Positions 6,540 to 57,444 of a stretch of DNA of 64,000 nt are shown here, piece by piece. The notes under the pieces were generated by a model, which searched no databases, was not told the DNA's origin, and saw only the letters and a program-made list of their open reading frames with translations. The position numbers and the translations under genes are program-made. Source of the DNA: Spirogloea muscicola (taxonomy: Eukaryota; Streptophyta; Zygnematophyceae; Spirogloeales; Spirogloeaceae); NCBI GenBank assembly GCA_009602725.1, contig WELB01000010.1:1085520-1149519 (forward strand), in the 5' to 3' direction. The stretch's first letter is position 1. Every line of letters starts with the position of its first letter.

Positions 6540-6870
6540 TCTTGCAGAAAGCTTGGCTTTTTCCAGCCCCTATCCTCAATGGGCGAGCCCTTCTTTTTTC
6601 CGGCTCCTCTTTCTTTGGCTTTGAACATTGTCCTTTCTTTTTTGGGCTGGCTTTGCCAGCCCCTCTTCTCTATGGGCTCCTCACTCGTAACTACTGAGTG
6701 GTCCATCCTCCCCCGTTCTGCCATGGCCCGGCAGTCGCTGCTTAGCTCGTAGTTTGGCCCTTCGAACCTTGTCAATTCTTTTCGGGCTGGCTTCTCACAG
6801 CCCTTGCCCCCATTGGGAGAGCCACTTCTTCTATGGGCGAGCACTTTCTTCAAGAAGTGCTCCCCCACAG
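6540..6870 (+). repeat. Nested LINE 3'-tail modules with conserved hairpins
   Basis: At least three tail segments lie head to tail. One contains an 8-bp stem GGGCTGGC (6644-6651) / GCCAGCCC (6655-6662) with a TTT loop. The next is the module that runs from GGCTCCTCACTCGTAACTAC through CTTCGAACCTTGTCAATTC to GGGCTGGCTTCTCACAGCCC and GGGAGAGCCACTTCTTC. The same module follows LINE C-terminal coding sequence at 11398-11720 (minus), which identifies it as retroelement 3' UTR. Confidence 0.7.
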
Positions 6871-7935
6871 AAGGTAGGGGCTGCTGGGAAAGGCCAGCCC
6901 AACGGAATGGACAAGGTCCGAAAGAGCCAGACTGCGCCTACTGAGAATTCACACAGCTAGGCACGAGACCACCGCTGATGGAAGTCGAGTAATCACGAGT
7001 GAAGCAGCAGCGAGTCGGAGCAACTCGCAGCTGGGAAAGAGGCACCCCGCCTAGACCCAGATGCAGCCGCCATGGCGCGGCCTGCTCGCAAGTGGACAGC
7101 GTGAGCCAGGGAGCGCTGGGAAGAGACTGGCAGCCGCATCTGGAAGGGCCGGATGGCGCAAAGAGCAAGGTACTGATCGCCAAGGCGTCAGCAAGTGGGC
7201 ACTCTGTGACCTCTAGTCAGTAAGTGCAAGTCGGGATGGCTGGAGGGCGGAAAGATGTCGCGCTGACGGAACCCGGAGAGGAGCAGCAGGCAAGGCGGCA
7301 CGGCCTGCACGCGAGTGGACAGCCAAGGCGAGGGACCTCTGCAGTGGTGGCAAGGCCGCTCAATAAGCCTTAGTCAGCAAGCCCGAATCAGAGTAGATAA
7401 ATTGCGTCGCCTTGGCGGTACCCGGAGCAAGGCGCTTCCCGCAGAGGGCGATGGCTGTGAGTGGGCCAGCCCAGAAAGAGAGAATGAACAAGGTCGAATG
7501 GGCAGAAAAGCCCAGAAAATAGAAGTGGCTCTCCCAATGGGGGCAAGGGCTGTGAAAAGAAAGAAAGACAGGGCTCGCCCATTGAGGATAGGGGCTGGAA
7601 AAGCCAGCCCAAAAATGAAGGAACACAGTACGAGAAGGGGGCCAGGGGAAGCGCGAAGAAAAACAAGCACAACAAGAAACAAAGCAGCTACGTATGACTC
7701 AGTAACCCCTGCTAAGCAGCCTCAGGTCAGAGAAGCTAGGCTCCTAGAAGTGGGTCCCCTGGCCAGAGCCAGAGGCCGAGAAGAGGGGCTGGCCGGAAGA
7801 AAGGACCCGGAGGTGGATGATCGGATGGTCCAGATCAAAGTCACGCTCGGAGGCGGCAGCCCATGCACGGCCTGCGGCAGCTCGGGCCGCGCCCCCCCCG
7901 AGGCGGAGCCCCCGCAGAACCACAGGCCCGCCGCC
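6871..7935. repeat. LINE-tail fragments upstream of the F-box fragment
   Basis: No gene is recognised in 6871-7450. At about 7455-7760 minus-oriented tail modules recur: a GGGCTGG/CCAGCCC hairpin near 7601, the AATGGGGGCAAGGGCTGTG block near 7536, and the CTCAGTAACCCCTGCTAAGC block near 7699, as in the LINE remnants at 10797 and 33053. The frame open from 7315 into the F-box start runs through this repeat and is not taken as coding. Confidence 0.55.
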
Positions 7936-9320
7936 ATGGACGATCTGCCGGACGTGTGCCTCTCCGCGGTGCTAGAGCGCGCTGCCGCCAGGCCGCGGGC
8001 TCCGCCGGCTTGGGCCGCCATCGTGCGAGTGAGCCGCCGGTGGCGCCGCCGCGCCCGAGCCGCCATCACGGAGGTCTCTCTGCGGGACCGGGCCAGCGGT
8101 TCGGGGTCGCCCTGGCGCCCGGGGGGGTCGGCGATGCTGGGCCCCGCGCTGGTCGCCGCCTTCCCTTCTTCGACGCGCCCGAGTCTCGACTTCAGCTACG
8201 GCCGAGGCCACCGCCACGCCCCCGAACTCGGCCTCCTGTCGGACATCACGACGCTCACCGACTTGCGAGTCAGGCTGGCGGGGGCTCATTATATTGATGG
8301 CGAGTAGCCGCGGTGAGGCCGCGGCGCAGCCTTGTAGCCATCAGCGCGCTCAGCAACATCGTGCAAGCGCTCGCATTGCATGACACGCGTCTTGACTTGC
8401 CCCTGGCTGAGATTGCCGGCTTCAAGGCCCTCGAGAGCCTCTCGATGACCTACTGACGAGCTGCTGGTGATTCCCTCATGCTATTATGTGTCGTCCAATA
8501 CCTCGCTTGCTGCATACTCTACTGCTTCCACGCACCACCGTGTCTGAGCCCGGCAGATCTGTTTCACATGCGGTTGCAGATACCCCAGTGCTGACTTGAC
8601 ATCCTCTCGTCTCAAGCAGATGCAGACATACACGTCATCGCTGCTGCCTGCCGACACCTGACAGGACTCGAGCTGTGGCCCTCCAACAAGTGGCCTGCTG
8701 CTGGCATCACTGACGTCCGCTTGGAATCGATCTCCAAGCACATACCCCAGCTCCGCAAACTCCACCTCCGAGGCTGCCGCAGCATCACGGACGATGGATT
8801 CAGGCAGGTGGCCGTTGGTTGCTTGCTGCTGCACTGATGCTGGCTTGGAGATGATGGCCAGGAATCTGCCCCAGCTTCGCATTTCCTCACCCAACACTGC
8901 TACAGTGTCACCAACGGTGGCATCAGGCCTTGGGTTGGCCTTTGGTTGCCCGCTTCTACAAGACATCAGCATATACGTTTGCCCCAACTTCTCTGCACGA
9001 TCTCTGCATGCGCTTGCTGTAGCTTGCCAGCTTCTGGGCAAACGCATGCAAAGATCGTGCAGAGAAGTTGGGGCAAGTGTTATGCTGATGTCTTGCAGGA
9101 GCGGGCAATGCAGGAGCGGGCAACCCAAGGCCACCTGCCTGATGCTGTCCGTGACGCTGTGGCAGTGTTGGATGTGGAACTTGCGAGCTGGGGCAGATTC
9201 CTGGCAACCATCTCCAAGCTAACATCAGTGATACCAGGCGCCCGACCCTCGTCCAAGTGCCACAGCTCAAGCTCTGTGAGGTGCCGGCAAGCAGCAGTGA
9301 CCATGTGCATGTCATGATCT
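7936..9320 (+). pseudogene. F-box / leucine-rich-repeat protein fragment, degenerate
   Basis: An ATG in good context (GCCGCCATGG, 7936) opens an F-box-like N-terminus (MDDLPDVCLSAVLERA, then WAAIVRVSRRWRRRAR). Weak LRR-like sequence follows (LLSDITTLTDLRVRL; later LPLAEIAGFKALESLSM around 8390-8447) and then a GRR1/FBXL-type LRR block at about 8617-8838 with ACRHLTGLELW, PQLRKLHLRGC and SITDDGF. F-box LRR proteins select substrates for SCF ubiquitin ligases. No continuous splice path was found: the first frame stops at 8305-8307, a stop also follows SLSMTY, and from about 8830 the LRR coding sequence turns back on itself as an inverted copy. This is most simply a rearranged pseudogene lying between LINE tails; a heavily spliced active gene cannot be excluded. 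Confidence 0.55.
8830..9232. repeat. Large imperfect inverted repeat (fold-back) of LRR sequence
   Basis: The left arm, about 8837-9012, is matched by the reverse complement of about 9043-9227. The inner 32 bp (8981-9012 against 9043-9074) differ at one position; the 30-nt loop is 9013-9042. Outer parts are diverged and carry a small duplication (GCGGGCAATGCAG) on the right. More distant similarity extends to 8620 and 9320. A transcript across it would form a long double-stranded stem. Confidence 0.75.
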
Positions 9321-9423
9321 GCATTGATGGAGGTGGTACTTTCATTAGCATTTGATCGGCACCTGACTTTCTCAAACTGCATTCAAAGAAGCACAGACTG
9401 CTAGTCAGTGGCACCAGTTGCAC

Positions 9424-9535
9424 AATTCTCTTCTCTATGGGCGCGCACTTTCTTCTGAGAGCGGTTTTGCTCCTTCTGGACCTTGTCATTTCTTTTCTGG
9501 CTGCCTGTTCACAGCCCTTGTCCCCCTTGGCGGCG
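9424..9535 (+). repeat. LINE 3'-tail fragment abutting the PIG-O fragment
   Basis: The blocks TTCTCTATGGGCGCGCACTT, GGACCTTGTCATTTCTTT and GGCTGCCTGTTCACAGCCC match the tail modules elsewhere. It ends about 30 bp before the PIG-O start codon, after which a GGC/GCG run begins. Confidence 0.6.
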
Positions 9536-9565
9536 GCGGCGGCGGCAGCGTCGGCGGCGGCGGCC

Positions 9566-10579
9566 ATGGCGCGCTCCGCGGAGGCACGCACGCTGCTCGG
9601 CACCCTGCTGTGGCTTCTGCACCTGCACGCCGCCGCCCTCTACCTCTTCACCGCCGGCTTCCTCCTCACGCACGTGGAGCTGCGCGACGTCAGCCTCTGC
9701 GGCAACGTCGCGGACGCCGCCGCCGCCGCTCCAGAGGGCCCTCGCGGAGGACGTGTGGGGAGAGCGAGGTGGGGGGCGTGCTGGACTGCGCCGGCCTTTA
9801 AGCTCGCCATCATCATCATCATTGACGCGATGAGGAGAGCACCTGTTGCTGAGCGTCTCCGGATGTCCCGATTGTGGCTGTCTGTGCTGAATGACCGCTG
9901 AGTGTCAGAGGGTTGACAGTAAAGGCACGAATGTCGTGCGCTTGCTGCAGAGCCGACTTCGCCGTCAACAGCAGCGACTATGGTGCTGGCAGCTCTTCTG
10001 GTGAGTATTTGGTAAGTTGTTGCTCACGATTTCCACTGTCTTTCTCCGACAGAGCTGGTCAAGAGGACAGAAAGCCAACTTGACTTCTTGCGGAGTTGAT
10101 GTTCTCATGCACAAGACGGATCAAACAGGGGTTACACTGCTGGTACTATATAGCAGGTCACTGATGAACTGATGTGGTGCATGGGCAGGAAGCCCGTGGG
10201 TAGGTAGCCTTCCCATCTTCCAGCAGCTAGTGCAGCACGGGAAGAACCCCGCTGCAGTGCTCAAGTCTGTGGCAGACCCCCCAACCACGTCGCTGCAGAG
10301 GCTGAAGGTGAGTCGTACCTTCTTGCACAGTCAGTGGCTTAAGTAGGACACTAAGCTGTGCAGGTAGTACTGACGATACTCTGTCGACACCCCAAATCAA
10401 AGGAGAATTTGTTTGCATCAAGCACCAAGCAGTAGGTACACTGCCTTCGTGACACTTCGTGACACAAGCAAAAGACTGCTCCTGTACAGGGCCTCACAAC
10501 AGGCGGTCTACCCACGTTTGTTGACGTTGGAGATAGCTTCGGGGCACCAGCTGTCACCGAGGACCAGCTCATTTCCCAA
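9566..10579 (+). pseudogene. PIGO: GPI ethanolamine phosphate transferase 3 (PIG-O), exons 1-4 only, truncated
   Basis: PIG-O is the ER membrane enzyme that adds ethanolamine phosphate to the third mannose of GPI anchors. Visible exons are 9566-9834, 9951-10000, 10204-10307 and 10490-10579, with closing phases. Family signatures are the N-terminal membrane segment (ALYLFTAGFLLTHVEL), a GACW motif, the phosphodiesterase start IIIIIDAMR-ADF, DPPTTSLQRLK, and GLTTGGLPTFVDVG with EDQLISQ. This covers roughly the first 165 residues of a protein that normally has about 900-1100. The rest is absent: a normal donor at 10580 leads into about 215 bp of non-coding DNA and then a LINE remnant. The first intron's donor reads GAGAGC where GTGAGC is expected (9835-9840), so a T-to-A change at position +2 probably blocks splicing. 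Introns are retained, so this is a DNA-level copy, not a retrocopy. The start at 9566 has a good context (GCGGCCATGG). Confidence 0.8.
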
Positions 10580-10796
10580 GTGAGTATAAGTCATGCAGTC
10601 GCAGATATTGTCAAACGAGCAACATGTACTGTGCCGGTCATTGAGGTACAGGTCGACACTCAGAGGGAAACTTAATGCCCAACAGTAGATGGGCTGTCCG
10701 TAATTTGGACAATTTAGCGGGCTTGTGCTCTGCGCCACCACCGCGGCCGCCTCACCGCCGGCTGCGCGTGAGCCGACGAACATATAGCAGAAGGGC

Positions 10797-11385
10797 CCGC
10801 CCATCGAGGATAGGGGCTGGAAAAAGCCAGCCCAAAAAAGAATGAACAAAGGACGAGATGGGGCCAGGGGAAGCACTAGGAAGAACAAGCACAGAAAAGA
10901 AACGAAGCAGCTACGAAGCACTCAGTAAACCCTGCTAAGCAGCCTTAGGTCAGAGAAGCTAGGCTCCTGGAAGTGGGTCCCCTGGCCAGAGCCAGAGGCA
11001 GCAGCGAGGGCTCTGCCGGCACGCAGGTGCAGCGCGCGGGCCATAGACCTCCGCAGCGAGACGGCCAAGCGCATGCGGTACACCTGCCCTAGCGACCCGG
11101 CTGCATGGGAGTCCACCGGCTCCCCATGGAAGCGGCGGACAATGGCGTGGCGTGAGAGCCGGTTGAGCAGCTCGTGCCACCGAGCGCCCAGCGCTCCGTG
11201 CGTATCGATGGCGAGCGGGAAGAGCTCGTCTTCTCGCGGGCGATCTGCGTATCTTAGCTCCTTGGCCCGAGCGGCGCAGGCTACCAGCATACCCAGCCTT
11301 GGTGGCACACTGGGCTGGGCGTGAGCGGTCATATTGGTCAGTGGTCACCACGTCCAGGAGAAGATGTGGCCCGCCGACTGGTGGG
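10797..11385 (-). mobile_element. LINE remnant: C-terminal coding end plus 3' tail
   Basis: Reading minus, about 11330-10930 encodes a C-terminal domain with IDTHGALGARW, RRFHGEPVDSHAAG, VYRMRLAVSL and ALHLRAGRALAAASG. It is followed by a tail with TGAGTGCTTCGTAGCTGC and a GGGCTGGCTTTTTCCAGCCC hairpin near 10815. The same segment recurs at 33053-33580 and, more diverged, at 16034-16441. The IDTHGALG block is typical of the very end of non-LTR retrotransposon proteins in green algae (recalled family knowledge, not searched). There is no reverse-transcriptase domain here, so this is a 5'-truncated dead copy. Confidence 0.65.
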
Positions 11386-11397
11386 GTAACATATAAA

Positions 11398-11720
11398 AGA
11401 AGAAGTGGCTCTCCCAATGGGGGCAAGGGCTGTGAGAAGCCAGCCCGAAAAGAATTGACAAGGTTCGAAGGGGCCAAAGTACGAGCTAAGCAGCGACTGC
11501 GGGGCCTGAAGAGGCTATGGCAGAACGGGGGAGGATGGACCACTTAGTACTTACGAGTGAGGAGCCTCACATCCGACAGACTAGCTGCCGGTAAACTATC
11601 CCCTGACGAAAGCCGGAGGCCGCAGCGAGAGCACGGCCAGCACGCAGATGCAAGGCGTGGGCCATGGACCGCTGGAGGGAGACGGACAAGCGCATACGCA
11701 TACATATAAGCCCACGGTAG
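11398..11720 (-). mobile_element. Second LINE remnant with a different 3' tail type
   Basis: On the minus strand about 11720-11600 encodes the same terminal domain in broken frames (VHGPRLASACWPC, SRCGLRLSSGD). It leads directly into the tail module CTAGTCTGTCGGATGTGAGG, CTCCTCACTCGTAA, CCTTGTCAATTC, GGGCTGGCTTCTCACAGCCC and GAGAGCCACTTCTTC. Finding the tail attached to LINE coding sequence explains the solitary copies at 6685, 53180 and 57219. Confidence 0.65.
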
Positions 11721-16029: not shown

Positions 16030-16560
16030 AAGACTAGCAGCCGGAAAGCAGTCCCCCCAACGAAAGCCAGAGGCTGCTAGAGCACGGCCAGCACGTAAAT
16101 GCAAGGCGTGGGCCATGGACTGCTGGAGTGATATGGACAGGCGCATGCGAAACACCTGCACTAATAGGCCAGCGGCCTTCAAGTTGGCCTGATCGCCCCG
16201 CCTGCGGGGCACAGCGCGGAGCGCAAGCCGGGCACAACAGGTCAAGCCACTGATACCCGAACACATCGGCTGCCGGTGGGACGGGCTCCCCTTCAAGCAA
16301 GCGCGGCCAGATTGACTGGTGGCTGGGAGAGGCCAGCCCAAAGGAATGGACAAGGTCTGAAGGAGCCGGAGTGCTAAGGATTGAGACAGCAGCAAGCGGA
16401 CTCCCCTTCCGGGTGGTCCGCGTACTTGGCAGCTCTGCCACGAGCGGCGTCCGCAGCTACATGTCCAGCCTTCGAGGCAGAGAGAAGGCGCGCGGTGCGC
16501 ATCAATTTGACAGGGAGGCCAATTCTAGCCTTACAAATGTCCTGATAACTGGGTAAAGAG
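16030..16560 (-). mobile_element. LINE remnant between O-fucosyltransferase copies B and C
   Basis: Minus-strand coding traces (VFRMRLSISLQQ, MAHALHLRAGRALAAS) at about 16225-16050 match the terminal domain of the other LINE remnants, with frame breaks. A piece of tail (AGGCCAGCCCAAAGGAATGG, near 16331) is attached on the other side, so the copy is rearranged. Confidence 0.55.
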
Positions 16561-16932
16561 CTGGCTAAGGGGGACACTAAATGTCCACGAGTGAGCACAT
16601 GCATATCTGACAAGCTATACTGAGACGCCAAACCACCACCACGCGGAAGCCATTAGCCTGGGCTAATGCACGACCAGCACGCTGGTGTATCGCGAGTGCC
16701 TGGGATTGGAGCGCTCAACCACGCCTGTGGTGACCAAAGGGCCAATACACCATTCATGCAAATGTGCAAGCAATAGCTAGAGCAGGAGATGGGGCTACGA
16801 GGACGACGACGTAGGGAGAAGCGGACAAATGCGGTTTGGAGCCTCAACCGCGCGGGCAGCCCGTTGGACTTATACCAATTTCGACCGCGAAGGCGCCCAG
16901 GAGAGCTGGCCGGGCCTCGCCGCCCGCGGCCC

Positions 16933-16963
<31 letters not shown>

Positions 16964-22332: not shown

Positions 22333-23479
22333 ATGGCAGAGCTCCGCCGCCGCCGCGCAGCCGACGCCGCCGCCGGCGCTCATGGCGGCGCGCGCGGCGN
22401 NNNNNNNNNNNNNNNNNNNNNNNNNNNNNNNNNNNNNNNNNNNNNNNNNNNNNNNNNNNNNNNNNNNNNNNNNNNNNNNNNNNNNNNNNNNNNNNNNNNN
22501 NNNNNNNNNNNNNNNNNNNNNNNNNNNNNNNNNNNNNNNNNNNNNNNNNNNNNNNNNNNNNNNNNNNNNNNNNNNNNNNNNNNNNNNNNNNNNNNNNNNN
22601 NNNNNNNNNNNNNNNNNNNNNNNNNNNNNNNNNNNNNNNNNNNNNNNNNNNNNNNNNNNNNNNNNNNNNNNNNNNNNNNNNNNNNNNNNNNNNNNNNNNN
22701 NNNNNNNNNNNNNNNNNNNNNNNNNNNNNNNNNNNNNNNNNNNNNNNNNNNNNNNNNNNNNNNNNNNNNNNNNNNNNNNNNNNNNNNNNNNNNNNNNNNN
22801 NNNNNNNNNNNNNNNNNNNNNNNNNNNNNNNNNNNNNNNNNNNNNNNNNNNNNNNNNNNNNNNNNNNNNNNNNNNNNNNNNNNNNNNNNNNNNNNNNNNN
22901 NNNNNNNNNNNNNNNNNNNNNNNNNNNNNNNNNNNNNNNNNNNNNNNNNNNNNNNNNNNNNNNNNNNNNNNNNNNNNNNNNNNNNNNNNNNNNNNNNNNN
23001 NNNNNNNNNNNNNNNNNNNNNNNCGGCGCTGGCCGCCGCGGAGCGCGGCGGCGCGGAGCGCGATGCTGTGCTCGCCCAGATGGCCGTGTACGCCCGGCAC
23101 GTCGCCGCGGGCCAGGACGCCGCCCAGCAGCGGCTCGGTCTGTGCTCCGCCCTGAGCGAGGCCCTCCATTGTCTGCCTAGCCTGTGGCTCCGCTAATGGA
23201 GCCACTAACATAGTCATAAACACCCTCTGTATGCACCTAACTGGCTGTTACAGCCGCTCTTGTAATATCAGCAGCCGCATTTTTCCATTGTCAGTCATCT
23301 GCAATTGTGGGTTAGCTGCAACGTGGGCGGCAGCTGATGCCCACGTGAAGGCGGTGGTGCTGGTGCCTGCAGTGGACCTTGAGCGACGGGACGCCGTGAT
23401 GCAGGACGCCATCCTGGCCATGTTCACTGCCATCGAGGAGGTCGGCGCTGAGTACCCTCGAATGCAGCTAGTAAGATGA
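22333..23479 (+). CDS. Unrecognised gene interrupted by an assembly gap
   Basis: A possible start at 22333 (MAELRRRRAADAAAG) runs into the gap. After it, 23024 to about 23175 encodes an Ala/Arg-rich helix-prone stretch (ERDAVLAQMAVYARHV). A donor near 23175 (GTCTGC) joins in phase to 23331-23479, which encodes DAHVKAVVLVPAVDLERRD and AMFTAIEEVGAEYP and ends at a TGA. Whether the part before the gap belongs to the same gene is not known. The next gene starts only about 320 bp downstream on the same strand, so this could be its 5' portion with a missed exon; in-frame stops before 23803 argue against that. No family was recognised. Confidence 0.35.
22400..23023. other. Assembly gap (624 N)
   Basis: This run of N lies within very GC-rich sequence. 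Reading frames spanning it have no meaning. Confidence 0.98.
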
Positions 23480-26934: not shown

Positions 26935-27030
26935 TTGTCAGAGACCCTTTTTCGGGCTGACTGTTCACAGCCCTTGCTCCCTTTGGGAGAGCCACTTTAC
27001 TTTCGGGCGCCTATGGACCTTAGCTCGTTC
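26935..27030 (+). repeat. LINE 3'-tail fragment
   Basis: The blocks CGGGCTGACTGTTCACAGCC and TTTGGGAGAGCCACTTTACT match the hairpin and end of the tail module. The following 270 bp are GC-rich and end in a (CCG/GCC)n run at about 27298-27372; no gene was recognised in them. Confidence 0.6.
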
Positions 27031-27447: not shown

Positions 27448-27540
27448 GGAGCGATAGCTCAGTGGTAGAGCAGTCGACTGCAGACGCTGGCGGCGCTCGG
27501 TAGGAATCGACGGGTCCCCGGTTCAAACCCGGGTCGCTCC
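27448..27540 (+). tRNA. tRNA-Cys (anticodon GCA) with a 22-nt intron
   Basis: The cloverleaf closes fully. The acceptor stem GGAGCGA pairs with TCGCTCC, the D stem GCTC with GAGC, the anticodon stem GTCGA with TCGAC, and the T stem CCCGG with CCGGG around TTCAAAC. The seven-base anticodon loop CTGCAGA shows anticodon GCA. Twenty-two extra bases sit at the canonical position 37/38, leaving a 71-nt mature tRNA to which CCA must be added. The intact A box (TAGCTCAGTGG) and B box (GGTTCAAACCC) suit polymerase III. Confidence 0.96.
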
Positions 27541-28168
27541 TAGACCCGGCCCAACACTTGGCTTTTCGTGTTCCGGAACGTGGTAAACAGGAAAAGCTTT
27601 CCCAGCTCACTCAGCTCATCCAGGACTTCCACCTTAAGTGCCTTGAATTTGTACCGAAGCCACCCTGGTACCACTCACTGCCTCTGGGTTGCATACGCAG
27701 TAAACGTGACTCAGCTAAATTTGTGCCCATCAGATCAACTATTTTCTGAAATAAACAAGCAGCAAAGGCCAGAGTATGTGCTTGTGCACAGTAGATACAT
27801 CGCCTAATTCAAGTAAAGCTTGACCAATGGTACAGCGTAAGACCCTCAAAGTCATATTTTCACAAGCTTTGGACTTTTTGCTAATACCAGTTCGCATGAG
27901 ATGATCAAGAAGGATGTGACTAACAACCCAGCTAAAGTTTCCAGCGCTTCCCATGCTTGCAAGCTTTTTATTGGCAAGTTGGTCTATATGGCAAGTGTAC
28001 AACGCATGCCCAGAAGCAGCACCACTTTGAAAGGACGAAGACATGATCCTAAGTAACCAAGCTAACCCCTATTTTTGCAGCACAACCATGCTCACATGCT
28101 TTGTATCAGCTACATGACTTTCATTGCAGACTGAGCAATTGCATGCTCACCAGTCAGATTGCACCCTC
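27541..28168. other. Intergenic region between tRNA-Cys and ESF1
   Basis: AT-richer DNA with no convincing exon or repeat. It should contain the tRNA polymerase III terminator and, on the minus strand, the ESF1 3' UTR. Confidence 0.6.
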
Positions 28169-33052: not shown

Positions 33053-33580
33053 ATGTAGAGAAGGGCTCGCCCATTGAGGACAGGGGCTGGAAAAAGCCAG
33101 CCCAGAAAAGAATGAACAAAGGACGAGAAGGGGCCAGGGGAAGTACGAAGAACAACAAGCACTAAAAAGAAAGGAAGCAGCTACGAAGCACTCAGTAACC
33201 CCTGCTAAGCAGCCTCAGGTCAAAAGACTGAGTTCCTGGAAGCGGGTCCCCTGGCCAGAGCCGGAGGCAGCAGCGAGGGCTCTGCCTGCACGCAGGTGCA
33301 GCGCGCGGGCCATAGACCTCTGCAGCGAGACGGCCATGCGCATGCGGTACACCTGCGCTAGCGACCCTGCTGCATGGGAGTCTACCGGCTCCCCATGGAA
33401 GCGGCGGACAATGGCGTGACGTAAGAGCTGGTTGAGCAGCTTGAGCCACCGAGCGCCCAGCGCCCCGTGCGTATCGATGGCGAGCGGGAAGAACTCGTCT
33501 TCCCGCGGGTGATCTGCGTATTTTAGCTCCTTGGCCCGAGCGGCGCAGGCTACCGCATACCCAGCCTTGGTGGCACACTG
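33053..33580 (-). mobile_element. LINE remnant: C-terminal coding end plus hairpin tail
   Basis: Minus frame from 33578: KELKYADHPREDEF, LAIDTHGALGARW, RRFHGEPVDSHAAGS and VYRMRMAVSL, with ARALHLRAGRALAAASG at the end. The tail carries the GGGCTGG (33084-33090) / CCAGCCC (33097-33103) hairpin. It is the closest relative in the window of the copy at 10797-11385. No reverse-transcriptase part is present. Confidence 0.65.
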
Positions 33581-33584
33581 GGTT

Positions 33585-34520
33585 GGAAACCCTGCAGCGT
33601 TCCCTGGCACGAGCCTTGCATCTTCGTGATGGTCATGCCGTGGCTGCCGCTTCAGGCTCCCAGTCTCTCTGGCCGCGCCTTGTCCTGCTACAGGAGGGCC
33701 AAGACTCCTTACCTGCTTGTTCCCAGCTTGCGGCTGCTGACTGGGAGTCACTAAGCAGGCAATCGTCAGTAGTCTCTAAGCTTCCAGCTCAGTTGGACCT
33801 CGTTCGTTTGTTTGTGGGTAGTACAAGAACCAACAGCTCGTCTGAAGTAAGTCGATGGCTGAAAGAGGCCAGCCCAAAGTAAATAATAAGGTTTGAAAGG
33901 GCCGGGAGGCGCAATGACACGAAAAGCACTCTCTCTGTGGGTTGCCTTTTCACAGCCCCCGCCCCCTTCGCAGAGGAACTTCCTCATCTACATTGAGTAA
34001 TAGCCTGCTGAACCCTGAAGACCTTGTCCATACCTGTTGGGCTCCTACAGCCATCGCCTGACATGCAAAGAGCTGCTTCTTCTTTGGGAGAGCTACTTGT
34101 AATACTCTAGAGAAGACAGCGTTTCAAAATACGGCAACGGCTGTGAGAGGCCAGCCCAAAGGAATGTACAAGGTACAAGAAAGTGCTCCCCCAGAGGGTA
34201 AGGGCTGGTGTAGAGAGACCGCTGGGTGCAGCCCCTCTTCTCTATGGGCGAGCCGTGCTATGGCCGCCGCCTCTCGGTCTCGGCGGAGTGCCTCTTTCCC
34301 TGCAGCGAGCTACTCAGACCTGATGTTGCTCACTCGTGGGTACTGAGCTTCCCTCTGCATCGTCTGTGTTTTGCAGTGTTTTGTAGTGTAGTCCTTTTTC
34401 CGGCTCCTCTTGGCTGGACATTGTCCATTTTTTTTAAGCTGGCTTTGCCAGCCCCTCTTCTCTATGGGCGAGCACTTCCTTTCTTCTTCTCTGTAGGCGA
34501 GCACTTTCTTCCTCTGGGTG
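33585..34520. repeat. Mosaic of LINE fragments in both orientations
   Basis: Immediately beside the previous remnant, a plus-strand scrap (ARALHLRDGHAVAAASGS, about 33600-33655) repeats the same terminal domain in the opposite direction. Tail pieces follow near 33865, 33940, 34150, 34240, 34440 and 34500, including an AGCTGGC/GCCAGCC hairpin at about 34438-34455 and TTCTCTATGGGCGAGCACTT ends. No host gene was recognised. Confidence 0.55.
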
Positions 34521-35089
34521 CAGGATGGGCAAAGAGAGCGTCAGTGTCAGCGCCTCTCCGCGTGGCCGCTAGTCAGCGTCACGCACACGGGGCAACCTGC
34601 GCAAACTCACGTCGGTGGGTTGCCCAAAGTTGCCCAGGGAAAGACTCTTCCAGTAGAGGTGCAATGGCTGTGATAGCTCGACTCAGAAAACCGAACGGAC
34701 GAAGTTCGAAGGGTGCCGGAGAAGCGCCAAAGCACACAGTGGATAGCACAGTAAGTCAAGTGGCCACTGGGTGCTCAATATCCCTGTTGAGCAGCTCAGG
34801 TGCATCTCTGTGTTTGCAGCCAGCGCGCCTGGGAATGAACCGGTGTAGATAAGGCCGCCCCGTCCCGTGAAAATCACGGGCGCGAGCGGGCGGGGGCGCC
34901 AGGTCCAGGTCGGCGTGGCCGGCACGAGTGGCCGGTCTGTGGGCCCATTGGAACGCCGGCCATCCGCGCGGTCCGGAGCCACAAGCCAACGAGGCCGCCA
35001 CCAAGCTGCGGTGGGCCACGGGAGAAACCCTACAACCTAAACCCTGAACCAGGAACAGCTGCGCCTTGTGAAAAAAGAACTGACGCTTC
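34521..35089. other. Region without recognised gene
   Basis: Mixed-composition DNA with a CCCTAAA-like patch (ACCCTACAACCTAAACCCTG, about 35020). No exon series was supported on either strand. Confidence 0.5.
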
Positions 35090-35920
35090 CAGGAGAGGGC
35101 GGTGGCTGTGAGCGGAAAAGAGTTAGCTCTCCCCATGGGGGCAAGGGCTGTGATAAGCCAGCCCCAAAAAAACGGACAAGGTTTGAAGGTGCCACACTGC
35201 GAAGGGGCCAAAAGGGCTATCTCAGAACTTGGGTAGGATGAACCTCTTAAAACCTACGAGTATGGAGCCGAGAGAGCTGTGAGAGGCCAGCCCAGAAAAC
35301 AGAATGAACAAAGCTCGAAGGGGCCAAAGAACGCGCTAAAGCACACAGGGAACCAAGGAGCTACGAAACACTCAGTAACCCCTGTTGAGTTTGGCCATTG
35401 TTTGTTTAAATACACGACAATTCCCTCTTGAGTGGGTCGCCACACGCTTGCACTGCCACTCCACCGTATTGGGCATTGTACATTCCTTTGGGCTGGCCTC
35501 TCACAGCCATTGCCGAAAATTGGAAGAGCTGTTCTCTAAGCGAGTTCTCCCGATTCTCTTCCATTCAGAAAACTGCCCTTTCACAGCCATCGCCCCCGTT
35601 TCGGGAAAAGCTTTCGTTTCCGGTTTTGTTTGGGCTGGCCTTCTTCATTACACTTGAGCTGGCCTCTTACGGCCATCATCCTATTTTGATGGAGCTATTT
35701 CCGTCTTGGCTGGCGTTTGCAGTAAACAGTCCCGTTTGTAATGCTTGTCGAAGCTGTGTATACTTGCTAGGGGGTACAAAACCTCCCCGATCATGGTGCT
35801 TCTGCCCCCTTTGCCTTACTGGCTCTTGCTAATTTGTGAATTTCAGCGCTTTTTGGCCCCTTCGAACCTTGTCCGGAATGGCCTTTCATAGCTCTCGCCC
35901 CCTTCGCACCAGAAAGCTGG
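35090..35920. repeat. Cluster of LINE 3'-tail modules
   Basis: Minus-oriented tails lie near 35130-35190 and 35280-35390. Plus-oriented ones lie near 35480-35540, 35570-35650, 35650-35700 and 35840-35920, each recognisable by TTGGGCTGGCCTCTCACAGC-like hairpins and a following (C)GGAGAGC-type end. Copies are diverged, so several separate insertions are implied. Confidence 0.6.
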
Positions 35921-35989
35921 GCGAGCTCTAGTTGGTGGCAGAAGGGCGTCGTATCTGCCATCTAGTATTCAGGCATCGATTAGCGACCT

Positions 35990-36620
35990 TAATGTTTTGA
36001 CCCGTGGTTACTGAGCGAGTCAATCTGCTGTAGGTGATGTGCGTCTCTAGATGTGCTTGCCTATGTACTTGGCCATTTGGCCTTTGTTTGTTTCAGATAC
36101 ACGAAAATCCTCCTTCGGATGAGCGTACTTCCTTTACATTAGCCCCTCTCAGCCTAGGGCTTCGCTATTCTGTAGGTCCGTTCTTTGCACTACTTCTGCC
36201 TGTTTCGCATGCACAATGGATATGCTCCGCTTGGCCTCCCTGCCACTTCATGCGCATGCGCGCTTTCTCTTTGGAAGGTAAATTGTCCCCAAAAGGACGC
36301 GATGGGTTGTGAGAGAGGCTCTGGTGGCTTCATATGTGGTAGAACTCTATGCTTTCATTCTCGCTCATTGACGCAAGCTGGCCGCTTCACACAGTACCGC
36401 CTCTCAACTCATTTCCCGTCCTCGACGACAGGCAGCAGTGACAGTGCAGTTGCTTTCACGTTCAAACGATGAAAAGGAATGACTCTTCCAAATATTGAAA
36501 TTGACAGTGGGCTCTTCCACAAGAATATCTCGTGTATTTGAAACAAACGAAGGCCAAATGGCCAAGTACAAAGGCAAGCACATCTTAAGACCTACATAAC
36601 CTACAGTAGAGTACACGAGG
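35990..36620. repeat. Second tail type in opposite orientations
   Basis: On plus at 35995-36110, a GACCCGTGGTTACTGAG block leads through AGATGTGCTTGCCTATGTAC to TTGGCCATTTGGCCTTTG. The same sequence lies inverted at about 36505-36620 and direct at 54372-54485. It resembles the 3' UTR of the LINE ending at 54840. GGCC-ATTT-GGCC is again a small hairpin. Confidence 0.6.
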
Positions 36621-39121: not shown

Positions 39122-39152
<31 letters not shown>

Positions 39153-47869: not shown

Positions 47870-48473
47870 TCCCACTCTCTTCCACTAGTCTATTTAGTTG
47901 TAGTGCCTAACATCTAGCACAGCAGTGGGGTTTCACGGCGATCCACTAGCCTGCCATGGCTAATCTAGTTCCTCATACTAGAGATGGAGGTTAGCATCGC
48001 AGCCCAGCGATGCCCTCCAGAGCACTTTCACAGCACCATGGACAGCAGTGGTAGACAGGAAGAGCGATACATGCAGAGCAGGCACCAACAAGGATGTCAT
48101 GAGGGACTCTCAATACTGAGCTGTACAGTAGGTATAGACATTTAATACCATGGCCTCTCCTGGCCTTTTGAGGCACACAGCAAGGCCTTTGAGGAATCTC
48201 ATGTCGTCTGACCTAGGGAGTGACATGCAGATGTCAAGCTGAGCAGCACGAGCATATCAGCCAGCAAGCGCGAGACTGGCAAGCTGTAAGACTCTCAAGG
48301 GCTGTTCCGCCTTTTGCATCGGTGCCATGTCCAAGGCCTGAAAGGAAGAAAAGCGCTCTGTCATGCCATATCATGGACAACTGAAGCATAATGGACAATG
48401 ACTACCACCTACGCAAGCATGACTGTCATGCCACATTGTGGACTACTGAAGCATAATGGACAATGATTACCAC
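47870..48473. other. Convergent intergenic region VPS35L / bromodomain gene
   Basis: Apart from the 65-bp tandem duplication that begins at 48358 nothing was recognised; it should hold both 3' UTRs. Confidence 0.5.
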
Positions 48474-48487
48474 CTATGCAAGCATGA
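48358..48487. repeat. 65-bp tandem duplication
   Basis: Unit 1 (48358-48422) and unit 2 (48423-48487) share TGAAGCATAATGGACAATGA and CAAGCATGACTG, with a handful of substitutions. The presumed stop of the minus-strand bromodomain gene (48474) falls in unit 2. Confidence 0.85.
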
Positions 48488-51225: not shown

Positions 51226-52340
51226 TATAGAACATCATTGACCTTGTAAAGTTCTGAACGATCTCAAAACAGGTTAGCACCATTGGTCAGGGCTTACCTC
51301 GTGGAGCTAAGCTGCCCATGTCTTGACTGGGGGACTCGCATCCTTGACATCTAGATGCAAGTCCTGTGTCAACTGAGAATCATTTCCTGCTGACGATGAA
51401 GTGGCATGAGCATCTCTGCCACATTCGGCAACTGATCCATGTCAGAGGCAATTTTTGTATTTGTACTGTCAAATCTTATCTTGAATGTCGTCATGGCTGC
51501 CAAGCTTGCCTTGACCAGCGCACAACTGGAAGCACCAGACAAACACACCATGCAAAAGTTTCCAGGAAGAAGTGCACCTGATATATCTATTAATAGATAC
51601 CAAGGAATGTTGCCTGTGGCAACCAATACAGTGAAACCTAACAACCGTCACCAACATTCTAAATGATGGGAGGATTGACCAGACAGATTACTCACCACAG
51701 CACTAGTCCAATTACTCAAATCACAGTGCTTCTCCGAGTAACAATATGTACAGGCCAAACATCATCCTCGGAATCATGCAGGTCACATGACCTGCCTCTG
51801 CCACCTCCACGGCCAGATTCACAACGTGCACGCCGACCAGAGCTGACAGCAGAAGGTAGCAAGCGCCACTGCTGGCCCAGTCCTGTAACTGGTCGTCTCT
51901 TCCCTTCGTTTCAAGTGAAAGGCGACCAGCCCCGCGACAGGCGAAATGTGCCTTTTGATGGCGACGAGCTGACTGGCCAAATGGTGCACCAGAATGTCAC
52001 TCTCTCAGCGTTGACGAGGCTCCTGCAAGGACGCCTACAAATCCATCGAGCGAAATTGTGGACGCGGTCCCAGAGGCCGCTATCGGAGCCCGCAAGCACG
52101 GCCCTCGACCGGGCGAGAAGTTATTGGCGCACTCCCATCACAGAGCCCGCCAAAGGCCTCAGAGGCGCCTTGCTTCCGGGCTGGGCACACCGGCCGCTAC
52201 AGCAAGCCGTCTGCGCCGCCCGCTCGCCCTGCCGGCGCCGCCGCAACCGTCGCGCCGGCGCTGTGGAGCCTCTTGCTCCAGCTTAGTCTGGCTATTCAAG
52301 TTCTGGGAAAGAAGGGTTACGGAGGGAAAGGGGAGGGGGC
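51226..52340. other. Unassigned region with a long composition-driven frame
   Basis: A plus-strand frame at 51663-52286 (207 codons, basic, no domain) starts in AT-rich DNA and ends in GC-rich DNA; it could be an exon but nothing supports it. Promoter sequence of the minus-strand bromodomain gene should lie just above 51225. Confidence 0.35.
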
Positions 52341-52620
52341 TTTTGGGCACTTTGCTGTCATTGGGCTGGCCTCTCACAGACCCTGTCCATTCTTTCCGGG
52401 CTGGCCTCTCCCGTTCTTTCCGGGCTCGAATTGCTGTCATTGCTCGAATTGGCCTCCCTTTCATTTTCATGCGTACCCCGCGCCTTCTTCCCAGCCTTTC
52501 AGTGGTCACTTCCCACAGAAACAGCTCTTCAAATGGAAGGCAATGGCTGTATCTTGCTTTCGAGAGAGAAGCAGCTGATTTTAAACGGGGGCGAGGGCTG
52601 TGATAAGCTCTTCAAACCTG
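52341..52620 (+). repeat. LINE 3'-tail fragments
   Basis: The block TTGGGCTGGCCTCTCACAGA near 52358, a tandem GGGCTGGCCTCTCCCGTTC-like piece, and TTTCATGCGTACCCCGCGCC repeat blocks seen near 54090. They are diverged copies of the tail module. The 52620-53145 stretch that follows holds no recognised gene. Confidence 0.5.
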
Positions 52621-53145
52621 GTATACAGAGTTATAGAAAGCAGAGGGGGACCATGGGAGTCGAAATAAGTGCTGCGATTGTGAGAAATTACTCTTTCATA
52701 TGAGAGCAAAAGCGGCCCGCAATGCGCACGCCTTTCAACATGCGCGATGTGCAGTCGAAAGGCAGGACACTTGTCAAGAAAAGGTTTCGTGTATTTGTCA
52801 GGAGGCGGGAGACTGGGTCCTTGACTGTCCCTACTCAATTTTCCGTGGGTCAATTGTCAGGCAGGGTGCCAGAGTCGCCTCGCTTAAGCTAGGGACGAGG
52901 GCTCCGATGTCATGATTTAGTTGCGCGGGCTGGGCGGGTGGGGGAACGGGGGAAGAAGTGACAGGTGTGTAGGGGCGCGGAAGCAGCGGGTGGAAGTGCT
53001 CGAATGGTGGAGGCCGCCGTTGCGCGGATGTCGGGGGGCCCAAGCAGCCGGCGCGGCTGCTCGGCCCATGCGCCCAGGCGATTCTCCCGCCCGCATCGCT
53101 CGGCGCCGCGGGGACGGCTGCGGTGGAGTCGAGAAGCCCAATGGA

Positions 53146-53400
53146 GTGGAGCAGCCCCTATCCTCGATGGGCGAGCCCTTTTACCGGCAGCTAGTCTGTC
53201 GGATGTGAGGCTCCTCACTCGTAACTACTAAGTGGTCCATCCTCCCCCGTTCTGCCATAGCCTCTTCAGGCCCCGCAGTCGCTGCTTAGCTCGTAGTTTG
53301 GCCCCTTCGAACCTTGTCAATTCTTTTCGGGCTGGCTTCTCACAGCCCTTGCCCTCATTGGCAGAGCCACTTCTTCCAATGGAGTGGAGCAGCATGGGCC
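53146..53400 (+). repeat. Well-preserved LINE 3'-tail module
   Basis: It runs from CCTATCCTCGATGGGCGAGC through CTAGTCTGTCGGATGTGAGG to the hairpin GGGCTG (53329-53334) / CAGCCC (53343-53348) and ends at GCAGAGCCACTTCTTC. It matches the copies at 11398-11590 (minus), 53757-53975 (minus) and 57219-57412 (plus). Confidence 0.75.
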
Positions 53401-53754
53401 GTGGGCGGGTGCGCCCCCTCGCCCGGCAACTCCCCCACCCCCCCCGGCGGGCTCCCCATCCCGGCGCGCGCCGAGACCCCCACTGCCGTGCCGACGGGTG
53501 GCTGCTTGGCACCTGGAGCGGGAAAAGGGCAATCTGTAATGTCGTCCGCCTATTGGAGATGGGATCAACGCACGCTGGGGAACGCCAAAGCGACGGCGGT
53601 CCCTCCCGCCCAACCGACCGACCGACTGTCGTTGCAGAGTGCCGTGACAGGACGAGGCATGTCTGTCCCGCTGGCGCCGCTGGCGCTGAGGCCGCCGGCT
53701 CACTCGCGCCGCCTCCCAGCTCTCGCACGTTCCTTAAGAGACACCTTAGCATAG
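53401..53754. other. Spacer between two oppositely oriented tails
   Basis: About 350 bp of GC-rich, C-run-containing DNA lie between a plus and a minus tail copy. Open frames on both strands (for example 53228-53782 minus) run through the repeats and are not accepted. Confidence 0.4.
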
Positions 53755-54600
53755 AAAGAAGGGGCACTCCCAATGGGGGCAAGGGCTGTGAAAGGCCAGC
53801 CCGAAAAGTATTGACAAAGGTTCGAAGGGGGCCAAACTATGGAGGGGCCTAAAAAGCGCTAAGCAGCTACGAAAGGAGAGGCTATGTCAGAACGGGGGAG
53901 GATGGACCACTCAGTAATTACGAGTGAGGAGCGTCGGATTTGGAGCCTCAAATCCGACAGACTAGCTGCCGGGAAATCATCCCCCGATAAGCACAGGGCA
54001 CCCCCATTAGCATAGGGCTCCGCTTTATGTAGCCTTGTTTTCTTTTCACTAGATTCTGCCTGAACAATGTGTTGGCTTGGATTGGCCTCCCTTTCATTTC
54101 ATGCGCTCCGCGCGCCTTCTCTCTTCTTCGAACTTTGTTCATTCTTCTTTCTGGGCTGGCCTCTCACAGAGCCACTCCTCACAGCCACCGCCCTCTCCCG
54201 GAAGCGTCCTCCTTTTTGGGCTGGCCTCTCACAGCCATCGCCTGATGAGCTGGAAGAGCATTCTTTCTGGTTATTCTCTTGTGGGTCAGCCGATACCGCC
54301 ACCTCATTCTTGGTGAAACTTCAGCACGTGTGACTTCAGCCCGCCAGATTTCGACCCTTCGAACCCGTGGTTTTGACCCGTGGTTATTGAGCGGGTCCAT
54401 CTGCTGTAGGTTATGTAGGTCTATAGATGTGCTTGCCTTTGTACTTGGCCATTTGGCCTTCGTTTGTTTCAACTACACGAACTTTCTTCGGACCTTGTCC
54501 ATGTCAATCAAGCAGGCTTTTCAAAGCCCTCGCTCCCTTACAGTGAGCTCACTTCACTCAAACTGTACCGGAGTCAAGAAAGACAAGAGCAAGTAATGTC
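53755..54600. repeat. Tail modules, minus copy followed by plus copies
   Basis: 53757-53985 is a minus copy of the well-preserved tail. 54050-54240 holds two plus tails (GGGCTGGCCTCTCACAGAGC, GGGCTGGCCTCTCACAGCCA). 54370-54560 holds the second tail type with hairpin GGCC-ATTT-GGCC (54447-54458), followed by a GGCTTTTCAAAGCC hairpin. Confidence 0.65.
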
Positions 54601-54839
54601 ACCCTCCACCTCCTGCTTGCGCTGCTGGCTCTCAAGCTAGCTCTTATTCATTCTTCTCTTCCCAGTCTCTAGCCATTCATCAGCATGCTGGGCGCGCACT
54701 AAGCCAGGCCACTGGCTCTGCGGGGTGGTGCTCCGGCGCCCCATTTAAGGCAGGCAATTGTATGTGCTCATTGGTGGGTACACCACTTTTGGCTCGTGAA
54801 GACTTCGAGTGTACCGTAAAGGAATGGAGTGTGTATTAA
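54601..54839. other. Short intergenic spacer
   Basis: No feature was recognised between the repeat block and the 3' end of the LINE at 54840. Confidence 0.5.
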
Positions 54840-56780
54840 GTGATGGAGGGCCTGAGAGGCCAAGTACGAAGGCAAGCACATTTGAAGATGAGATGTACAT
54901 GACCTGCTGCGTAGCTGACCCGTTCAGTAACCCAAGTCAGTACATAGAGGCGGCTAATTGATGCCCGAATACCGGACGGCACATGACAAGCTCTTGTGCC
55001 ATCAATCACGGCTCGACCGGCTTTCCCCCTGCATACCATCTCGCACGAGATCGTGGGAAGCGGTCCGCTCGCTCCCGTGCGCACAACGGAGCATATGCGC
55101 AGCCAGCTCCGCAGGGTCAGCGTGACGGGCACCGCGCTCGCACTGAGTGACGCCCACGAGGCGGGGAGGGAGGAGGCCCAAGAGCCGGTGAACCGCCGTC
55201 CTGTAGACCTCATCGGGCATGGTGAGCGCCGCGTGGAGTGGGAGCGCTGATAATCACGCCGCCGCCCCTGGGGAAGAGGCTGAGAGGAGCCGGGCGCGGC
55301 CGCGAAGGTCAGACGGGAGGAGAAGCTCCACTACCTGGTCAGAGGCCGCTTCTTCAACCAGCGCCGTGAAGCGGGCCTGGGCACGCAGGTCAGGGGTGTG
55401 GGCGAGGTGGGTGAAAGGGACGATATGCTCCGACATGTTGGGGTGGACCGCCAGGAGCCCGTCGCGGGTAGAGCAGAGGGCAACCTGGAAAGGCAGCTGG
55501 CCGATCTCCACTTCAGCTGCCGCCCGCTCCAGGGCGCGCTGGCCGTGGGCAATAAATCTCTGGCACATAGGGGCTGCAACAAGTGCCCAGCTGCCCATGT
55601 AGGCCGCCTCACAGGCGCCGGCAACTGAGCGGCATCCCAAGCCGCCGCTGCTGGTCGGCAGGCTAGCCTGCAGCAGCGCAGCTGGTGAGGAGAGGAACAC
55701 GGGGTGCTGCACGAGAGTGGCCGCCGACGCGAGGATGCCGGAGTCGAATGCCGCATACGCTGCCTTCACCGCCAATGAGGGGGGGTTGGTGCGGGCCAGA
55801 TAGTGTATCCGCTGCGTGATGCATCTTGTGAGCATAGCGGTCGCCAGCTGCATGTCCTGCAGCGTGTGAAGACGGTCCGCCGGCCGGGGTGTTCCTGCAG
55901 CCGCGCCTGCAGCTGCTCTGTCTCAAAGGCAGGTGCACCGATGGGGGCGCCGAGGAGGGTGAGGCCCCCAGCTGGTGACTGGCAGCCCGAGGGCAGGCGC
56001 AGGTGGGCTGGCAGGCCCTGGGGGGACCAGGCACTGCACTTAGCTTCACGGATGCCCAGGCCGATCGCACCCAGCTGCACTTTGAGGGTAGCGAAGGCTG
56101 CCACGACGTCGTCTGGCGGCCCCACCAACGTGGTATCATCAGCGTACGTGGGGACGAGGACGCCTCGGTGAGCCGCGACCGTTGCCAGCAGCGCACGGTT
56201 GTAAGCCAGCGCGTAGTAGAGCCCCGCCAGCGGATCCCCTTGGCGCGCGCCTGTGGAGGAATGGAGGACCTCCACCCCACCGTGCCCTGTCCGCCACAGC
56301 AAGTCGCTAGGCTGACCGTAGCCCAGCCTGAAGAAGGGTAGGAGGCTGGGGAAGGCCGCCCGCAGCTCCTCTGTGATGACATCCCGGTCTGCGCTGTTGA
56401 ATGCATTCCGGACATCTACCGCCAAGGCCATCCGTCCGGGGTTCAGGTCCAGGGCGGCCCGTACGCCGTGCACGACCACCCATGTCCCCCGCACCACCCA
56501 TGTCCCCCGCACGAGGCTGTGCAAGCTGCCTAGGTGCCGTATCCTCCCTCGCCACCGCCGTAGCCGCCGCGGCGCACGGCGTGGCATGAGGGACCTTGCC
56601 AGCTGGGGGCCGCGCTGCGGACGGCACTCTGCGCGGCGAGCTCTGAGGAGCGCACCGCGCAGGAGCGCGCCGTGCCTTCGCAGGCGGCGGCATGCGCGCC
56701 CGGCGGCACTCAGGCGCTCGAGCGCCCCCGGGGGGCGGCGGCGCCGGCGGCGAGCTAGGCAGCCGTTGGAGGGGTTGGGG
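54840..56780 (-). mobile_element. Non-LTR retrotransposon (LINE), internally deleted copy
   Basis: Minus-strand reverse-transcriptase domain: VHGVRAALDLNPGRMALAVD, DVRNAFNSADRDV, ARQGDPLAGLYYALAYNRALL and the YADDT catalytic box (about 56585-55950). After a frame change come SSGGLGCRSVAGACEAAYMG, a cysteine/histidine end with MLRCAHGSERTASHDLVRD, and a 3' UTR of the second tail type down to about 54840. Upstream, about 56515-56780 matches (inverted) 60655-60965 of the other LINE copy, that is, its 5' region. Between the two, the zinc-finger and N-terminal coding part (about 1.7 kb in the other copy) is missing. The join is marked by an 18-bp direct repeat (56475-56492, 56493-56510). Frame breaks and the deletion make it inactive. 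Confidence 0.8.
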
Positions 56781-57218
56781 GGAGAGTCCCAAAGAAACGC
56801 GGCTACCCAGAAGCAGGGACATCAAATCGACTATAAGTCCAATGTGGGCTTGACTTATGCTCTCTCTGGGCTGGTGATCAAGTGTGAGCTTTCGTTGTGA
56901 GCACTGTCTTGTTGTGAAGCATATACTGAAATTTGTGGCATGAAGCGCCTGCCAACGGCCAGCATCTACCCTGCCATCTCGTTTGGCACTTTCATATGCC
57001 TGTGGCTGACCTTAGATGTATGCGAAATTACGGGTGTGGAGAAGACATTCTGCAGCAGCTGGTGGAGCAGTGTGAAGCAGGCAGTGTGCACAGAAAGGAT
57101 CCCTCTCAAAGGGGACAATCAAGTGGATCGTTTGGAAGCGATTGACGTCCTGACTGTGCCAAGAGCAGTGGTGGAGCACGAACTCCATCCCCATTCTGCT
57201 GCTTAGCACGATAATTTT
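56781..57218. other. Spacer upstream of the LINE 5' end
   Basis: About 440 bp with no recognised gene. A plus frame at 56940-57206 has ordinary composition but no domain. Confidence 0.4.
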
Positions 57219-57412
57219 CCGGCAGCTAGTCTGTCGGATGTGAGGCTCCTTACTCGTAACTACTGAGTGGTCCATCCTCCCCCCTTCTGCCATAGCCTCT
57301 TCAGGCCCCACAGTCGCTGCTAGCTCGTAGTTTGGCCCCTTCGAACCTTGTCAATTCTTTTCGGGCTGGCTTCTCACAGCCCTTGCCCCCATTGGGAGAG
57401 CCACTTCTTCTT
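57219..57412 (+). repeat. Solitary, well-preserved LINE 3'-tail module
   Basis: It begins CGGCAGCTAGTCTGTCGGAT, contains CTCGTAACTACTGAGTGG, CTTCGAACCTTGTCAATTC and the GGGCTGGCTTCTCACAGCCC hairpin, and ends GAGAGCCACTTCTTCTTC. No coding part is attached, so it is an extreme 5' truncation or a tail mobilised alone. Confidence 0.75.
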
Positions 57413-57444
57413 CGATAATGAGCATGCACACATTGTAATGTAGG

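Follow-up and report, generated by a model that had tools for sequence, protein, structure and literature searches.

Among retroelements with a solved reverse transcriptase (RT), R2 (R2Bm and R2Tg; PMC12222951) is the nearest to the elements described here. R2 inserts into 28S ribosomal DNA (rDNA), and a structured RNA in its 3' untranslated region (3' UTR) starts target-primed reverse transcription, with template jumping as a further property of the enzyme. In stringent long interspersed nuclear elements (LINEs) of the L2 clade, such as ZfL2-1 and ZfL2-2 (PMC4176376), experiments have shown that a stem-loop in the 3' tail is recognized by the element's own protein. We analyzed a 64,000-nucleotide (nt) stretch of the Spirogloea muscicola genome (contig WELB01000010.1, positions 1,085,520 to 1,149,519 of the forward strand; hereafter the window) that carries many short, hairpin-bearing modules. 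These modules are the 3' ends, or tails, of at least five related LINE families, truncated on their 5' side, and we consider it probable that most of them are copies of LINEs with an R2-like RT and a shared 3' RNA module recognized by that enzyme. The LINE group is new and very abundant but belongs to an already known kind of element; among the matches listed in the open-access literature, we recognized no earlier report of this tail or LINE family.

The tail set was defined by an nhmmer search with five seed tails, one for each of families A to E, which returned 28 related tails in the window (Table 1). Three of them are attached to LINE coding ends. Across all loci examined, we collected 63 LINE C-termini that were matched to their end at E <= 1e-5; the first tail followed 90-230 nt downstream in 44 of these (A 17, B 9, C 11, D 5, E 2), with family medians of 126-165 nt, while eight had a tail elsewhere and 11 had none within 1.2 kb. 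The proposal of the first-pass annotation that the module is LINE 3' UTR sequence is thereby supported.

We then described the anatomy of the copies in an unbiased sample, consisting of the window and 25 evenly spaced loci on seven contigs (loci of 115 kb, including 24.3 kb of N). Of 101 matches, two of which were the D and E references themselves, the distance from the 3' end of the reference was at most 5 nt in 54 and at most 15 nt in 62; among matches with at least 90% identity, the former held for 28 of 42. The 5' ends were scattered from about 30 nt up to the reference start (475-541 nt), indicating that the predicted pattern of one shared 3' end and variable 5' truncation points exists as a tendency. 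Some copies were truncated inside the hairpin, which is therefore part of the copied RNA and not needed in the DNA copy. Direct repeats at both ends were evaluated in 106 truncated copies with a 3' end, taken from all loci and mostly chosen by their hairpin or B tail: repeats of at least 5, 6 and 7 nt flanked 56, 40 and 28 copies, respectively, compared to shuffled means of 25.0, 10.7 and 4.3, with a maximum of nine for the longest class in 200 shuffles. These target duplications show target-primed insertion. The flanks differed between copies, unlike the single 28S rDNA insertion site of R2 proper. The tail-only copies, in turn, look like ordinary 5' truncations and not like short interspersed nuclear elements (SINEs), so that the earlier suggestion of tails being mobilized alone calls for no special mechanism. 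At one pair of loci (L009/L010), a B copy was present twice together with its upstream flank, 364 bases apart, apparently reflecting a later tandem duplication of the entire insertion.

Genome-wide counts revealed very high copy numbers. A 19-mer of family C, GGGCTGGCTTTGCCAGCCC, had 1,721 exact copies (836+885 on the two strands) in the 153 Mb assembly, and a 20-mer of family B had 1,615, whereas the reversed control patterns occurred 0+0 and 0 times, respectively. The 25 evenly spaced loci contained 55 tails found with the five seeds; a tail density of about 0.54 per kb would correspond, by rough extrapolation, to about 71,000 tails in the genome. In the same line, the LINE C-terminal peptide encoded at 33260-33553 (minus strand) gave 14,915 first-look candidates genome-wide, and among the best 150 of these 14,915, dozens had the same score.

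The carrier protein was evaluated in a long copy (L072) with a single open reading frame (ORF) of 1325 amino acids. A Pfam scan up to E 1 identified RVT_1 (E 8.3e-16) plus weak C2H2 models at residues 277-297 (E 0.16-0.61, under the cut-off), at best weak candidates for the N-terminal zinc finger of the R2 group, and a search against PDB at E < 0.001 returned three R2 proteins at E ~1e-6 and no others. Judged by these sequence matches, R2 is the nearest solved structure to the LINE reverse transcriptase. No Pfam model for an apurinic/apyrimidinic (AP)-type endonuclease before the RT matched the ORF in the scan up to E 1; a strongly diverged domain could escape it. Six aligned rows, with motifs judged by eye, showed a C/C/H/C set after the RT, followed by a conserved RRxDLVA..DVxTTD stretch, and the protein most likely contains a putative restriction-like endonuclease; within the window, we noticed no intact copy of this region. 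UnaL2, to which the modules had been likened, is a stringent LINE of the L2 clade. The parallel holds for the probable mode of action and fails for the clade, as the ORF matches R2 and no AP-type endonuclease was detected; the group is probably not a relative of L1 or L2 elements such as UnaL2.

These observations can be combined into a simple scheme. The 3' module of the LINE RNA is made up of a run of pyrimidines, the GGGCTGG..CCAGCC hairpin, a segment of GGG(C/A)GAGC type (in families A, B and C, with other sequences in its place in D and E) and an end resembling CUUCUUC. Recognition of this module by the enzyme would set off target-primed reverse transcription, synthesis would usually stop early, leaving mostly tails inserted, and the enzyme might sometimes jump from one RNA end to the next.

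The hairpin was examined in an alignment of 47 tails, hand-picked from the 95 listed of 147 candidates. It was 85% paired, and its stem core GGCTG/CAGCC was invariant, with variation in the loop and the stem ends: the pairs of this core, five in number (columns 36-40 with 49-53), were identical in 41 to 46 of the 47 tails. Six tail consensus groups carry GGGCTGG..CAGCC, hairpin-bearing seeds having been used to find them. Compared across the five families, the 20-nt hairpin segment had a mean identity of 0.83 (shuffled 0.47), and the 13 hairpin bases outside the 7-base GGGCTGG anchor still reached 0.75 (shuffled 0.49). The 3' UTR before the tail was unalignable, with an identity of 0.48 against 0.46 after shuffling, and coding identity among the families without B was 0.62-0.81. 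In this biased set, the hairpin is the best conserved part of the 3' UTR. On the same 47 tails, RNAalifold predicted no structure with default settings, and the hairpin plus a short second stem with RIBOSUM scoring.

In families A and C, the predicted fold also includes an outer helix that encloses the hairpin. Free-energy z-scores were -4.2 for A and -2.7 for C, as compared to -0.5 for B, -0.9 for both D and E, +0.5 for the additional group D' and -0.6 for the related family F. The arms of the outer helix are GUCCAU/AUGGGC in C, GUUCAU/AUGGGC in A and UCAAU/AUUGG in B, with the 3' arm shared by A and C. In the shared register, B can form A-U where A and C have C-G, with one G-G mismatch; the minimum-energy outer helix of A, pairing CUCGUCC with GGGCGAG, uses another 5' arm than the register common with C. 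At a fixed register, the outer helix was 45.9% paired in the 47 tails, and the covariation score of this structure was reached by 2 of 500 shuffles; registers slid by +1 to +3 scored higher (0.100-0.116 as compared to 0.073). Pairing per family was 84% in B (register 0), 98% in C (+1), 93% in A (+1), 71% in D (+1), 71% in E (+2) and 67% in D' (+2), values that are inflated because the register was the best of nine for each family. An outer helix in A, B and C with one compensatory change between families is suggestive, and only that, because the fit is poorer in D, E and D', the register was set for each family separately and the slid versions score higher. Even more tentatively, the hairpin and outer helix might together form a common RNA end that serves as an interchangeable docking module, so that the families' enzymes join each other's tails, giving rise to the roughly 70,000 tails and to chimeras; we regard this extension as unlikely.

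Two chimeric insertions bear on how the enzyme works. One of them, at 53139-53393, joins a 24-nt fragment of an A tail to a 197-nt B tail within one 17-nt duplication; in the other, at locus L033 (about 1500-1863, minus strand), an A tail and a B tail lie within one 12-nt duplication. Direct repeats of 9 nt or more were present in 29 instances upstream of the 121 3' ends tested, several of them chance matches between tails, and the two chimeras are conspicuous in this set. They suggest template jumping, with the enzyme passing from the first RNA onto the 3' terminus of another. The competing account is that two insertions followed each other, the second entering the CTTC end of the first. Insertions prefer runs of pyrimidines (the 16 repeats of at least 8 nt have pyrimidines at 55 of 80 leading bases), so a second short duplication could hide in a CTTC end, and tails do cluster, with 25 neighboring pairs at most 100 nt apart against a random mean of 7.2 (maximum 14 in 1,000), 19 of them on the same strand. 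Yet in both clear cases a single duplication is present and a second one is not visible, and Bibillo and Eickbush are said to have described end-to-end jumping by the R2 reverse transcriptase in 2004, which also counts against it; we place successive insertion somewhat below an even chance. A more fundamental alternative would make the modules SINEs, that is short elements in their own right, each having a 5' end and promoter of its own and a borrowed LINE tail. Such an origin would agree with the small size of the end-reaching copies in the unbiased sample (48 of 54 below 300 nt) and with small 5'-end peaks in B at 75-84 nt (8/34) and in E at 40-44 nt (5/14). However, 5' ends spread over hundreds of bases and fall even within the hairpin, part of the B peak consists of copies with sister-family upstream sequence, and the E peak sits at the first hairpin bases, where, in our reading, between-family similarity begins. 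We interpret both peaks mainly as limits of that similarity and consider SINEs very improbable. Ends of Helitrons or other DNA transposons, for which a hairpin close to a conserved 3' end could be cited, are less credible still, given the attached LINE coding ends, the variable target duplications and the 5' truncation. By definition, Helitrons have a CTRR end and make no target duplication; the copies here end in CTTCTTC-type sequence and carry target duplications, and a Helitron end was ruled against.

Truncated copies of LINEs with a recognized 3' module thus remain our favored explanation, and several observations weigh against it. In the unbiased loci, where a match to the C-terminal end was not required, only 10 of 24 C-termini had a tail 90-230 nt downstream (elsewhere in eight, none in six). 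Likewise, 47 of the 101 matches stop more than 5 nt from the reference end, including 14 at 90% identity or higher; among the 47 are cross-family pieces and copies split by later insertions, although not all were resolved. In NCBIfam, the L072 ORF matched nothing but a model for group II intron RTs, with a score far below cut-off. When the putative endonuclease region was searched as a profile, neither an R2 structure in PDB nor a Pfam family at E < 0.1 was matched, and the zinc knuckle is spaced CX1CX12HX3C, unlike the CX2-3CX7-8HX4C published for the CCHC knuckle after the RT in the R2 group (PMC5678591); the missing R2 match and the deviating spacing leave the restriction-like endonuclease assignment unproven. 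The contrast in conservation is biased because the families were found and aligned by their hairpins, and the coding section of family B was out of register and had to be left out of the coding identity. Moreover, the related family F has no comparable hairpin (terminus CGCGCGCCTTCTC), and the terminal hairpins of families G and H are different ones, GGCCATTTGGCC and GGCCTCTCAGGCC, respectively. Finally, two-sided changes occurred in 0/7 hairpin stem pairs of the 47 tails, and no covariation was detected. The first-pass annotation had described a stem that varies while pairing is kept, and had taken this as a sign of selection on structure; the near-constant core contradicts the former and leaves the latter unsupported, and the covariation it looked to for support is absent, the outcome it had named as refuting, even though invariant pairs are uninformative on pairing either way.

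The last point opens the possibility that the hairpin is conserved only as a sequence, be it as a protein-binding or DNA motif, through recent common descent or by tail swapping, and not for RNA pairing. To weigh the two, we made use of the nearly self-complementary hairpin DNA, in which pair-breaking changes have pair-keeping mirror changes with about equal neutral rates, if mutation is strand-symmetric: G to A in the 5' arm breaks a pair, whereas C to T in the 3' arm keeps it as G-U (at pair 4, the mirror is a C-to-T change within the 5' arm). Beyond the invariant core without two-sided changes, conservation as mere sequence is favored by family B, in which breaking and keeping changes were equal (30 and 30 at pairs 2, 3 and 6). 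In family C, after subtraction of the 1,721 exact copies, 286 breaking and 702 keeping changes were counted at pairs 1, 2, 3, 6 and 7, and 17 and 675 at pair 4, where the double change had three copies (independence predicts 6.7). The excess of pair-keeping changes stems from two amplified subfamilies, one at pair 4 and one at pair 6, whose G-U variant made up 24 of 34 variants among 100 matches listed; with both set aside, it disappears (303 breaking and about 206 keeping, a rough figure derived from the 100 matches listed, on contigs C1-C4). Against conservation of sequence alone stand the loop, whose length and sequence differ between tails while complementarity of the arms is retained, and the two amplified subfamilies, which both keep pairing by G-U. 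The latter give suggestive, weak support for pairing: as independent events they are two of two, with a chance of 1 in 4. Overall, we judge conservation of sequence without pairing to be the less probable option, with a chance of roughly a third.

Of the four hairpins singled out in the first-pass annotation, three are intact (Table 1), and the fourth, near 34438, reads AAGCTGG..CCAGCCC, with A-C mismatches at its two outer pairs. The hairpin at 6644 had also been placed directly before its GGGCGAGC end; instead, a B tail with a TATGGGC duplication intervenes, and the GAGC end resumes at 6839.

Table 1. LINE tails and associated features in the 64-kb window (positions within the window)
Feature	Position	Strand	Support or remark
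Family A tail, 41 nt, 5' truncation within hairpin	6554..6594	+	100%
Family C tail, hairpin 6644-6662	6592..6677	+	split by B tail; end GAGCACTTTCTTC resumes 6839-6851
Family B tail-only copy within C tail	6678..6831	+	TATGGGC flanks at 6671-6677, 6832-6838
Family D-type tail; LINE C-terminus 7145-7056 upstream	6880..6927	-	nhmmer and protein match
Family E tail	7433..7494	-	28.8 bits (nhmmer)
B tail, 39 nt, truncated within hairpin, adjoins A tail	7521..7559	-	
Family A tail	7570..7776	-	89%
Family B-related tail, diverged	9476..9530	+	21.6 bits (nhmmer)
Family A LINE 3' end with coding end	10789..11291	-	94% over 503 nt
Family B LINE 3' end with coding end, terminus GGGAGAGCCACTTCTTC	11399..11716	-	98% over 319 nt
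Family D tail	16299..16403	-	92%
Family B tail	26949..26997	+	90%
Family A LINE 3' end (coding end, 3' UTR, hairpin 33084-33103, GGGCGAGCCCTTCT end)	33059..33559	-	97% over 502 nt against A reference, to its last base
LINE C-terminal peptide of the 33059..33559 element	33553-33260	-	protein match
D-related tail, diverged	33854..33903	-	17.5 bits (nhmmer)
D-related tail, diverged	34139..34175	-	20.3 bits (nhmmer)
Family C tail, hairpin partly broken, AAGCTGGC-TTT-GCCAGCCC	34252..34478	+	92%
E-related tail, diverged	34646..34709	-	19.8 bits (nhmmer)
Family B-related tail	35118..35269	-	73%
E-related tail	35272..35318	-	23.8 bits (nhmmer)
D-related tail, diverged	35471..35509	+	20.5 bits (nhmmer)
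B-related tail, weak	35855..35906	+	14.9 bits (nhmmer)
Target duplication, 17 nt, CAATGGAGTGGAGCAGC	left copy 53139..53155, right copy 53377-53393	+	
Two-tail chimera: A-tail fragment 53156-53179 and B tail 53180-53376 (hairpin 53329-53348)	53156..53376	+	
Family B-related tail	53756..53985	-	79%
Two family E tails, head to tail: 54128-54206, 54208-54245	54128..54245	+	nhmmer
B-related tail, diverged	54486..54548	+	18.2 bits (nhmmer)
LINE reverse transcriptase fragment (RVT_1)	55766..56821	-	E 6.1e-08
Family B tail-only copy	57216..57413	+	97%; GATAAT flanks at 57210-57215, 57414-57419

The B-related tail at 53756..53985 may possibly be the 3' end of a broken LINE to which the RT fragment at 55766-56821, on the same strand, would belong. 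Tails of the further LINE-like families lie at 36053 (plus strand; G), 54879 (minus; H) and 16522 (minus), 52449 (plus) and 54082 (plus; all F). An Rfam scan of the window matched tRNA alone and no other RNA family, the tRNA gene being located at 27448-27541 on the plus strand (RF00005, 57.9 bits). Runs of N occupy 5625-6297 and 22400-23023 and account for the long open frames seen in several frames at about 5.2-6.5 kb and 21.8-23.2 kb. At 48358-48487, a 65-base unit is repeated twice in tandem (91% alike), with no visible tie to the tails.

Compared to R2 and its 28S rDNA site, the copies described here are dispersed, with pyrimidine-leaning insertion sites and short, variable duplications. 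The group thus adds dispersed R2-like LINEs with a very high tail copy number to a branch better known for single-site insertion. If the module is a recognition site, its many natural variants represent a test set for RNA choice by an R2-like enzyme. The genome also offers a simple statistical design, with mirror mutations as readout and family B (30 and 30) as baseline. Dispersal has precedents: non-site-specific R2-like elements of the German cockroach (PMC7650587) are likewise dispersed, although they come from an animal and the abstract does not mention hairpin tails, and the HERO clade of restriction-like endonuclease LINEs (PMC4640811), to which we liken the group by description only, contains many non-specific elements among mostly site-specific clades. 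With the stringent L2-clade LINEs, the group would share recognition of a 3' stem-loop, which is experimental there and inferred here, in a different clade. In a plant L1 lineage (monocot 1a in ME1; Ohshima, PMC3747384), several LINE families likewise have in common a conserved 3' terminus of about 50 nt, hairpin included, while the rest has diverged, and CGAG is conserved in the 3' stem flank, as in families A and C here; those elements belong to the L1 clade and show compensatory stem changes, whereas the protein here is R2-like and the stem core invariant. Chlamydomonas SINEX elements, described in the same source (PMC3747384), are also short elements with a LINE tail in a green alga, but they are SINEs of unknown or tRNA origin, whereas the tails of Spirogloea muscicola are truncated LINE copies.

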